From: Parafilimonas sp.
GTDB lineage: Bacteria; Bacteroidota; Bacteroidia; Chitinophagales; Chitinophagaceae
Direction: 5' to 3'
Assembly: GCA_019247895.1 (NCBI GenBank)
Contig: JAFBAF010000260.1
Span: forward strand, 1-32,026
DNA: 32,026 nt
Each line of letters starts with the position of its first letter. Within the stretch, counting starts at the first letter, position 1. The translations under genes and the position numbers were made by a program. The notes below the pieces were generated by a model that saw only the letters and a program-made list of their open reading frames with translations, had not been told where the DNA came from and did no database searches. Of the stretch, positions 19,447 through 20,996 are shown one piece after another.

Positions 19447-20181
19447 ATGAAAAGGATTGCGGTTATACCGGCACGTTATGCTTCAACACGGTTTCCGGGC
19501 AAGTTAATGCAAGTGCTTGGCGATAAAACAATAATCAGAACGACGTATGAAAATACGGTTGCCACTAATTTATTTGATGATGTGCTTGTGGTTACTGACA
19601 GTGAAATTATTTATAACGAAATGAAAGGCGCGAATGTGATGATGAGTAAACGTGAACATGAAAGCGGCAGCGATCGTATTGCTGAAGCTGTGGAAAATAC
19701 TGACTGCGATGTTGTGATGAATGTGCAGGGGGATGAACCGTTTGTTGATGGAAAAATAATGGTGCAATTGCTAAATGTATTTGAGGATGAAGAAGTGATG
19801 GTAGCAAGTTTACTGCATGAACTGTTTGATGAAAATGATATTGAAAATCCCAATAACGTTAAAGTGGTGATAGATAAAAATTCAAATGCTCTATATTTTA
19901 GTCGCGCAGCAATTCCGTTTGCAAGAGATAAAGAAACAAGTGTAAAATATTATAAGCATATTGGTGTGTACGCGTACCGGAAAATTTGCCTGCTTCAATT
20001 CACAAAATGGCCGCAAGGCAGTTTGGAAAAGATTGAAAAATTAGAGCAGCTTCGTTATCTTGAAAACGGAGTGAAAATAAAAATGGTATTGACCGATCAC
20101 ACAAGTATTGGAATTGATACGCCGCAGGATTTGGAATTAGCAAAGCATTTTTTATCTGAGCAAAACAAATTGGAAATCTAA
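19447..20181 (+). CDS. kdsB: 3-deoxy-manno-octulosonate cytidylyltransferase (CMP-KDO synthetase)
   Basis: A 244-residue cytoplasmic enzyme that activates KDO with CTP for lipopolysaccharide inner core. Signatures are IPARYASTRFPGKLMQ (CTP loop), VVTDSEIIYNEM, SGSDRIAEA, NVQGDEPFVDG, YFSRAAIPFARD and a C-terminal IGIDTPQDLELA. Length is typical. It is the first gene of an operon: its stop overlaps the next ATG by 1 nt. It supports a KDO-containing outer membrane. Confidence 0.97.
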   Translation: MKRIAVIPARYASTRFPGKLMQVLGDKTIIRTTYENTVATNLFDDVLVVTDSEIIYNEMKGANVMMSKREHESGSDRIAEAVENTDCDVVMNVQGDEPFVDGKIMVQLLNVFEDEEVMVASLLHELFDENDIENPNNVKVVIDKNSNALYFSRAAIPFARDKETSVKYYKHIGVYAYRKICLLQFTKWPQGSLEKIEKLEQLRYLENGVKIKMVLTDHTSIGIDTPQDLELAKHFLSEQNKLEI

Positions 20182-20996
20182 TGTCAACACTTAGCTGTAC
20201 ACTAATTCAAACAAAATTATTTTGGCAGGATGCGGAAGCTAACAGGCAAATGCTGGAAGACAAAATCAATGCAATAAAAGAAAAAACGGAAGTTATAATT
20301 CTCCCTGAAATGTTTTCAACAGGGTTTAGCATGAAGCCTGAAAGGTTTGCTGAAACAATGGATGGCGAAACTGTTGCGTGGATGAAAAAAATTGCTGCAT
20401 CAAAAAAAGTTATACTTACCGGAAGCTTGATGATTAAAGATGACGAGCATTATTATAACCGGTTGATATGGATGTTACCAAATGGCTGCTGCGGTTGTTA
20501 TGATAAAAGGCACTTGTTTGCCTATGGTGATGAAAACAATCATTACAGCGCCGGCAATAAAAGATTAATTGCATCGGTGAAAGGATGGAAAATTAATCTG
20601 CAGGTTTGTTATGATCTGCGTTTCCCTGTTTGGGCAAGACAAAGCCCTTCTCCCTTTGAGAAGGGCTGGGGTGAGGTCTACTTTGAATATGATGTATTGA
20701 TTTATGTGGCGAACTGGCCCGAACGCCGCTCACTTGCATGGAAAACTTTATTGCAGGCAAGAGCAATCGAAAATCAATGTTACGTTATTGGCGTAAACCG
20801 CGTTGGTAGTGACGGCAATGGAATTTATCATGCAGGTAACAGTATGGTAATTGATCCGCTTGGCGAAATTTTATATCATAAAAAAGATGAAGAAGATATC
20901 TTCACAACAGAACTGAACAAACAACATCTTGAAGAAGTAAGAACACGATTTCCCTTTTGGAAAGATGCAGATAAATTTAATATCACCAATGAGTAA
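20181..20996 (+). CDS. Nitrilase-superfamily omega-amidase (YafV-like) carrying an in-frame repeat insertion
   Basis: A 271-residue carbon-nitrogen hydrolase with the catalytic triad Glu43 (ILPEMFSTGF), Lys109 (CYDKRHLF) and Cys143 (QVCYDLRFPVW). The sequence most resembles omega-amidase YafV, which removes ammonia from ketoglutaramate-like 2-oxo amides. Between CYDLRFPVWARQ and YFEYDVLIYVANWP, where relatives go almost directly from one to the other, there is an extra SPSPFEKGWGEV (about residues 155-166) encoded by a palindromic repeat. The frame is kept, so the protein may still be active with a longer loop. It overlaps kdsB by 1 nt and nagA by 8 nt. Confidence 0.88.
   Translation: MSTLSCTLIQTKLFWQDAEANRQMLEDKINAIKEKTEVIILPEMFSTGFSMKPERFAETMDGETVAWMKKIAASKKVILTGSLMIKDDEHYYNRLIWMLPNGCCGCYDKRHLFAYGDENNHYSAGNKRLIASVKGWKINLQVCYDLRFPVWARQSPSPFEKGWGEVYFEYDVLIYVANWPERRSLAWKTLLQARAIENQCYVIGVNRVGSDGNGIYHAGNSMVIDPLGEILYHKKDEEDIFTTELNKQHLEEVRTRFPFWKDADKFNITNE
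20643..20676 (+). repeat. Palindromic repeat inserted in frame in the omega-amidase gene
   Basis: AGCCCTTCTC (20643-20652) and GAGAAGGGCT (20658-20667) form a perfect 10-bp inverted repeat around a 5-nt centre, followed by GGGGTGAGG (20668-20676). It encodes SPSPFEKGWGEV, unlike any conserved part of nitrilases. Similar SPSP..(R/K)GWGE peptides recur in unrelated bacterial ORFs as I recall, consistent with a dispersed non-autonomous repeat. Confidence 0.75.

Follow-up and report, generated by a model that had tools for sequence, protein, structure and literature searches.

Palindromic units similar to the one captured in an omega-amidase gene of the window (the whole 32,026-nucleotide stretch of DNA analyzed here), in inverted arrangement and with their tails pointing outward, flank in-frame DUF559 nuclease cassettes in conserved proteins, including the LeuRS of the same genome. 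The composition of the cassettes, the similarity of their ends, their embedding in frame, their recurrence and the conservation of the nuclease are directly observed. The interpretation that we favor, with moderate confidence, is that of an element that behaves much like a homing cassette, lies in frame, does without splicing and gives rise to non-autonomous palindromic derivatives; cutting and mobilization by DUF559 are inferred, not shown. The flanked cassettes lie beyond what a sequence-only reading of the window, which had called attention to the captured repeat, could see.

The palindromic unit in the omega-amidase loop

The host gene (20181..20996, on the plus strand, as are all features described here) is an intact frame of 271 aa that encodes an omega-amidase-type CN hydrolase. 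It scores 263.4 bits against NCBIfam NF007757 (cutoff 249) and matches Pfam CN_hydrolase at E 1.2e-35, and E43, K109 and C143 do not vary among 26 aligned sequences, the window's own included. We take these three residues to form the catalytic triad and the enzyme to be what is called an omega-amidase; both the family profile and the E/K/C residues expected of an omega-amidase (YafV-like CN hydrolase) are thus in place. Direct reading of the sequence reveals a palindrome (20643..20667) with perfect 10-bp arms, AGCCCTTCTC (20643-20652) and GAGAAGGGCT (20658-20667), around a 5-nt loop, CCTTT, followed by the tail GGGGTGAGGTC (20668..20678). The first part of the tail is GGGGTGAGG (20668-20676), and its end is GGTGAGGTC, a sequence with which the DUF559 cassette of LeuRS and several further units of the same genome also end. 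The whole captured unit, a singlet (20643..20678), encodes SPSPFEKGWGEV, residues 155-166, and occupies most of the native linker's place between WARQ and FEYD, flanked by the codon of Gln154 (20640..20642), where many of the units captured in orthologs have their left edge, and, on the right side of the loop, by the conserved Glu-Tyr-Asp (EYD) codons (20685..20693).

The sequence-only reading had placed a perfect 10-bp palindrome plus GGGGTGAGG, encoding SPSPFEKGWGEV, at 20643-20676 of an otherwise normal omega-amidase that retains its frame and three catalytic residues. All of this held, with the catalytic role presumed, except that the right end is now set at 20678 because many genome copies go on with GAGGTC. 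An AlphaFold2 model of the omega-amidase (pTM 0.83) shows the insert as a loop predicted with low confidence (pLDDT <50 at residues 159-165). A second loop of the protein (residues 84-92, before NRLIW; 20430..20456) contains no unit here and is palindromic in the orthologs L020, L076 and L099. The singlet has no terminal inverted repeats beyond its own palindrome, the 38 bases 20641-20678 contain neither a GTAG nor a CGTC tag, and no target-site duplication was evident by eye at the unit, where replacement of the linker precludes a base-by-base comparison of the flanks. On balance, the segment appears to be one copy of what we call the type-1 palindromic family, which consists of a C-rich arm, a G-rich arm and the tail GGTGAGGTC.

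The genome (label G000; the window is its contig C93) is a 3.76-Mb draft in 366 contigs, 93.89% complete with 6.17% contamination. The 19-mer GAGAAGGGCTGGGGTGAGG, with <=3 mismatches allowed, occurs at 16 places in this genome and its reversed-pattern control at none; within the window there is 1 match, compared to a mean of 0.00 over 100 shuffles. Among the 16 places, the window copy alone is clearly gene-internal, the rest being intergenic or located at ORF ends. The unit is 36-38 bp long and repeated in the genome, which meets the size criterion for a REP and not that of high copy number. At four loci of this genome (L003, L004, L008, L009), units form inverted doublets of 107-113 bp with outer ends CCTCAYC...GRTGAGG, which are followed by TC in 4/4 cases and preceded by GA in 2/4. 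Doublets of ~110 bp lie between genes, and singlets both within and between genes; the doublets and the LeuRS cassette of this genome share the terminal ends CCTCACC / GGTGAGG.

The loop is readable in six congeners. Four of these have linkers of 8-9 residues that are unrelated to the unit (CVKESDFE in G001, CVTEDKPE in G003, KFDNNNFE in G005 and QFDEENNFE in G007), the loop of a fifth (G006) holds another kind of palindromic unit, and that of the sixth (G004) is a GC-rich linker of 17 residues without a clear palindrome. The window's loop has 15 residues as opposed to 8-9 in the short-linker congeners, and most of the linker is replaced; therefore, this is not a clean 12-residue insertion. 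Accordingly, the earlier claim of an insertion of about 12 residues held only in part: residues 155-166 are encoded by the unit, but most of an 8-9-residue linker was replaced, and the 4/6 readable congeners that lack the unit do not lack exactly that segment. The broader proposal, that of a small repeat able to live inside proteins, is supported by the 16 genome places, by these short unrelated linkers and by the survival of the frame and of the presumed catalytic residues. The two outcomes that would have refuted it, a repeat unique in the genome or the same loop throughout the family, did not obtain: the genomic copies contrast with the empty reversed-pattern control, and most orthologs have short linkers. 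We conclude that the omega-amidase unit is recent in this genome and recurrent across the family.

The recurrence rests on a comparison of family orthologs. The 110 ortholog loci were reduced to 108 (L097 and L115 misfit the loop expression) and, after removal of identical proteins, to 102; the loop search demands an open frame, so that broken captures would go undetected. Under the stricter threshold, on which we rely, a GC-rich palindrome is present in the loop of 11/102 non-identical orthologs, compared to 7/1018 in-gene windows of loop length and 9/1018 in-gene windows of 60 nt. The looser threshold yields 13/102 loops, against 34/1018 (loop length) or 51/1018 (60 nt) in-gene windows and 11/795 windows taken 400-900 bp upstream of the loop, most of them beyond the gene. 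Loop length ranges from 3 to 38 aa across the family. A sequence-pattern search matched 308/394 genomes, and carriers picked by eye from that match list were kept out of the statistics. On a midpoint-rooted FastTree gene tree, over which the carriers are scattered, the 13 looser-threshold carriers require 13 changes from an empty root (node support not examined); a run with a tighter GC threshold gave 10 carriers and 10 changes, with a shuffle mean of 9.7, and missed the window's own unit.

By eye, L017, L018, L027, L053, L061, L063, L071 and L076 share the orientation of the window's unit, with the tail on the right, and the units of L050 (Terrimonas pollutisoli) and L055 are inverted; L054 and L099 pass the looser threshold only, and their orientation class could not be assigned by eye. 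The palindromic units in ortholog loops look independently acquired, and they are not an artefact of draft assembly because some carriers (L050, L053, L122) are isolates; Lacibacter luteus, Terrimonas pollutisoli and Flavihumibacter profundi are isolates with the unit. The loop of L122 contains a 15-bp palindrome of unrelated sequence. As a separate observation, made by eye, the loops of L099 and G102 show another repeat type, CCTTCGACTCCGCTCAGG / TCATCCTGAGC..GTCGAAGGAT, so that the omega-amidase loop may accept unrelated repeats. A joined-probe search of 394 genomes recovered no full DUF559 cassette in an omega-amidase among the part of its matches that was read. One row, G275:C7 (query 2-175), was not taken to be an omega-amidase, being an 886-aa frame at 35% identity whose locus was not fetched, and a few others with ~1100-aa frames, e.g., G186:C170 (from 18) and G152:C187 (from 25), extend a short way into the omega-amidase portions of the query; none was taken to span both parts of the probe.

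DUF559 cassettes and their palindromic edges

The cassettes came to light among other intragenic copies: LeuRS genes carry, in frame, a whole DUF559 domain with a palindrome on either side. PF04480 had matches in 9/9 chosen genomes, 66/147 Chitinophagaceae and 102/247 Bacteroidota. The Chitinophagaceae list comprised 133 rows, of which 36, mostly low-scoring, were not fetched; 65/133 lie in an open frame >250 aa. After duplicates and copies too near the locus edge were dropped, 111 DUF559 hits became 108 (L198 gave no hit). These 108 distinct Chitinophagaceae copies (109 loci) include 60 that are embedded, the open frame extending >=80 residues beyond DUF559 in both directions, along with 8 N-terminal fusions, 1 C-terminal fusion and 39 free-standing copies. 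The embedded copies fall into 13 host clusters, identified by a Pfam scan of one representative per cluster: LeuRS (27 copies), the C-terminal part of MetH (7), an IcmF-type mutase (7), chorismate synthase (5), CinA (3), adenine deaminase (2), a homocysteine S-methyltransferase part (2), MetRS (2), and M23 peptidase, Lhr helicase, HsdR, IspG and an Eco57I-type enzyme (1 each). No intein or other splicing domain was detected at E 1e-5 in the Pfam scans of these 13 partial host ORFs.

The census also yielded several side observations. In the N-terminal fusions (L201, L237, L244, L256, L268, L271, L276 and L204), DUF559 is joined to ~230-500 further residues. A type I restriction HsdR, L183 (G081:C9), carries GIY-YIG and DUF559 in frame, with a palindromic unit after DUF559. 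A tRNA synthetase frame read as IleRS, L167 (G086:C9), contains a palindromic unit together with a PBECR1-type nuclease domain (PF18809), and a different nuclease may use the same niche as DUF559. In L382, L383 and L385, from the phylum-wide search, DUF559 frames include runs of palindrome-derived peptides, e.g., SPTGRGAGGEG.

The edges of the cassettes are enriched in palindromes. Among embedded copies, a GC-rich palindrome is present in 95/120 edge windows, as opposed to 4/117, 8/114, 9/112 and 5/112 windows shifted by 250-850 bp, and a second implementation, from which two hits <90 aa were excluded, found palindromes on both sides in 40/60 embedded copies, compared to 0-1 of 51-55 shifted; windows running off the locus were excluded from the controls. 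The free-standing Chitinophagaceae copies show the same trend (33/78 edges vs 6/77, 6/77 and 3/77 shifted), with palindromes on both sides in only 9/39. Across Bacteroidota, palindromes mark 17/22 edges of embedded copies (0-4/22 shifted) and 27/35 edges of free-standing copies (6/35, 4/33 and 2/33 shifted), although the 29 phylum-wide loci (L382-L410) are the best-scoring matches and not a random sample. The left and right flanks match each other (score >=30) in inverted orientation in 31/60 embedded copies and in direct orientation in 11/60.

In the genome of the window, the LeuRS cassette (contig C1) reads GACCTCACCCCCAACCCCTCTCCAAAGGAGAGGGG, DUF559, CTCCCTCTCCTTTGGAGAGGGAGGTAGAGGGTGAGGTC, with ends that can be written as GACCTCACC...GGTGAGGTC or GACCTCACCCCCAACCCCTCTCC...GAGGGTGAGGTC. 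The two ends of this cassette share 86% and 76% identity with the omega-amidase unit, and a LeuRS singlet shares 81% with it; the cassette ends resemble both the MITE-like doublets and the omega-amidase unit of the same genome. Within the fetched 1.6-3.4 kb, type-1 units occur at 30/109 DUF559 loci vs 0/26 Y1_Tnp loci, with the caveats that the two locus sets were not matched for repeat density and that some of the 26 Y1_Tnp loci belong to genomes from other families.

Assigned by crude sequence patterns, the ends fall into classes. Type-1 ends (CCTCACCC / GGTGAGG) characterize 18/27 LeuRS copies (+2 with both classes) and 4/5 chorismate synthase copies (+1 both), and were also found at the HsdR copy and 3 free-standing copies. 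The second class is found in 3/3 CinA, 2/2 adenine deaminase, 4/9 MetH and 1/2 MetRS (+1 both) copies, as well as at M23, 1 N-terminal fusion and 8 free-standing copies. Neither class applies to 7/7 IcmF, 7/27 LeuRS and 28/39 free-standing copies. Mapped on the DUF559 tree, the class labels require 20 changes, compared to a shuffled mean of 44 and a minimum of 36 (500 shuffles). The end class thus follows the nuclease tree, and common descent is part of this agreement; the cassettes seem to change host genes because chorismate synthase and LeuRS copies intermix in leaf order. The free-standing type-1 cassettes L184, L205 and L206, from three genera, lie between one and the same pair of flanking genes, which we take to be trpB and trpA.

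LeuRS offers a view of occupied and empty sites. A cassette-sized insert is present at site A (before KLRVYTTRPDTIFG) in 14/90 loci and at site B (before LETNTMPGYAGSSW) in 8/90; these loci were chosen partly for long frames, so that occupancy is not a frequency. Site B has a plain 8-residue empty form in 43/79 readable loci, and in L368 it holds a palindromic unit alone, without DUF559, PSPLGEGRGEAGM. In the window's own assembly, a second LeuRS contig (C67, L322), 94% identical, has an empty site B, which is occupied in C1; given the contamination estimate of the assembly, the C67 LeuRS may belong to another strain or species. Sites C and D contain palindromes alone, site D in the window's own genome too. 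Occupied and empty LeuRS alleles are only an indirect sign of homing, that is, of cleavage of the empty allele and copying. Among the short LeuRS inserts, 26/140 segments of 9-60 aa contain a GC-rich palindrome, compared to 44/900 random windows, and, in view of the latter figure, some of the 26 are due to chance. Two further observations can be recorded here: the singlets at site D, before the C-terminal part of LeuRS, are of the PSPLERAGGEV type in several genera (L292, L293, L332, L374), and a single LeuRS gene can carry two DUF559 cassettes at two sites (L208 in G151:C3; L210/L236 in G019:C90).

The nuclease itself is well conserved. E25, D54, E65, D67, H71 and D80, presumed to be catalytic, are invariant in 60/60 embedded copies. 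The fold is close to that of 3hrl (Z 14.0, rmsd 1.2, 87 aligned), the homing endonuclease I-Bth0305I (Z 10.3, rmsd 2.3, 87 aligned) and Vsr (Z 8.8, rmsd 2.3, 94 aligned), and the DUF559 profile matches I-Bth0305I at E 9.3e-5. DUF559 thus satisfies the criterion of a Vsr / I-Bth0305I fold with conserved acidic and His residues. In Caulobacter, a DUF559/Vsr-like protein is reported to trigger an SOS response in a subset of methyltransferase-lacking cells (PMC12907096).

Proposed mechanism and rival explanations

In the scenario that we favor, DUF559 would cut host DNA at preferred sites, and repair would copy the cassette in, much as happens with a homing endonuclease, except that no intron or intein is involved. 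The palindromic ends, which are stop-free in the frames used, would leave the host gene open, and the doublets and singlets would represent non-autonomous derivatives, moved or left behind by the same machinery and tolerated in flexible surface loops, as in the omega-amidase. This explanation has its limits: we identified no target-site duplication, the unit stands in place of the linker instead of splitting it, the L122 unit is unrelated in sequence, and the derivation of the omega-amidase singlet from a cassette is not shown because no full cassette was found in an omega-amidase among the joined-probe matches that were read.

Several alternatives have to be weighed against this scenario. The units could be REPs mobilized by a RAYT (Y1 / HUH transposase, PF01797), with the intragenic copies being accidental. 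Indeed, the size of 36-38 bp and the palindrome-plus-tail layout are REP-like, the doublets are REPIN-like, and a search of 9 genomes for Y1_Tnp found two matches in G000. Nevertheless, within the fetched flanks, type-1 units accompany 30/109 DUF559 loci and none of the 26 sampled Y1_Tnp loci, in sets that are not matched, and the unit lacks the GTAG and CGTC tags of the two REP superfamilies (PMC3733652). We consider this alternative unlikely. It also seems improbable that cassettes and palindromes are unrelated and simply gather where proteins tolerate extra loops. In favor of this possibility, both occur in the same permissive LeuRS loops, and unrelated sequences enter the omega-amidase loop too (L122 and, by eye, L099); against it stand the palindromes on both sides of two-thirds of the embedded cassettes and virtually none of the shifted controls, the palindromes at the edges of free-standing copies, and the tracking of the nuclease tree by the end class.

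Even less plausible is the absence of the insert from the mature protein, through ribosome bypass or through RNA or protein processing, for which the precedent is that of palindromic bypassed elements reported inside genes of Magnusiomyces mitochondria (PMC6649704). The captures that we found have an open frame, which bypass does not need, with the reservation that the search itself demands an open frame (only 2/110 loci were misfits), and no intein or splicing domain was recognized in the partial host ORFs at the E 1e-5 cutoff. A single old insertion in the family ancestor, subsequently lost or diverged in most species, would account for the same gene, the same loop and a mostly shared orientation, but is similarly hard to sustain given the 13 changes from an empty root for 13 looser-threshold carriers (again, without examination of node support), the inverted units of L050 and L055, and the unrelated sequence of L122. 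Finally, the possibility that the loop is merely variable and its GC-rich palindrome fortuitous can be all but ruled out: the loop does vary in length (3-38 aa), and at the looser threshold, palindromes are not rare in 60-nt in-gene windows (51/1018), but the unit has genome-wide copies, a repeat count that already excludes chance for the window copy, and the stricter-threshold excess in ortholog loops over in-gene windows persists.

The homing-like scenario can be taken further. Under a bolder reading, which we would neither endorse nor dismiss at this stage, palindrome-ended, in-frame, unspliced DUF559 homing cassettes in Bacteroidota core proteins, together with their short derivatives, constitute a new class of mobile elements. 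If this is the case, many in-frame coding palindromes would be nuclease footprints, and the missing mobilizer of protein-coding palindromes would be supplied. Apart from this reading, the cassettes are an example of a mobile element that may spare the gene it occupies with no need for splicing, because the protein tolerates it in the form of a loop or an added domain; this would explain the oversized versions of core enzymes. Because similar units border one nuclease family and recur at fixed places in LeuRS and omega-amidase, with both empty and occupied alleles in related species, mobility is testable.

Relation to known systems

In the open-access literature that we searched, no link between such palindromic units and DUF559 was found; earlier work may exist elsewhere. 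The closest parallels come from several well-studied systems, each of which shares only some of the features. The REP, BIME and REPIN elements associated with RAYT are likewise palindromes of 20-40 bp, sometimes arranged in inverted doublets and with intragenic copies (PMC3733652); among tagged REPs found inside genes, two Xanthomonas species have a REP at about the same recB site (PMC3733652). In contrast, the units described here have no GTAG or CGTC tag, and the associated nuclease is a Vsr-like DUF559 rather than an HUH enzyme. The doublet criterion for a REPIN is not met by the window singlet, although doublets exist elsewhere in G000.

With the EDxHD / Vsr-fold homing endonucleases, exemplified by I-Bth0305I, the cassettes share the fold, a weak sequence match and recurrence at fixed sites of conserved genes. 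They differ from the I-Bth0305I type in that no intron or intein is in evidence, the coding frame runs through the cassette, its ends are palindromic, and there are short derivatives without the nuclease. I-Bth0305I is reported to have been treated in split-intein work. Inteins with a homing endonuclease resemble the cassettes in being inserted in frame into conserved proteins with a nuclease inside, but no splicing domain was seen in the 13 host representatives, so that the criterion of self-splicing is not met. Bacterial MITEs (e.g., ERIC/RU-1 and Correia) share doublets with terminal inverted repeats, the absence of a gene of their own and, sometimes, in-frame fusion (PMC2229807), whereas here, the autonomous partner appears to be DUF559 instead of an IS transposase, and no target-site duplication has been identified. 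The window singlet does not meet the criterion of terminal inverted repeats, while the doublets and the LeuRS cassette have such ends.

Coding palindromes of Rickettsia have been known for over two decades. The Rickettsia palindromic elements, 105-146 bp long, occur in 19 reading frames, and one host enzyme (gmk) was shown to remain active (PMC2229807), and coding palindromes were also found in Wolbachia (PMC2229807; PMC6649704). What these elements have in common with the units described here is the in-frame palindromic repeat in conserved genes that is also found between genes. The likeness to Rickettsia palindromic elements, proposed in the sequence-only reading, thus holds as an analogy and not as membership, given that a unit of 36-38 bp in a Chitinophagaceae genome meets neither the length nor the organism criterion. 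A further difference lies in the enzyme: for the Rickettsia and Wolbachia palindromes, no mobilizing enzyme is named in the relevant sections of PMC2229807, whereas here, a DUF559 cassette is flanked by similar units.
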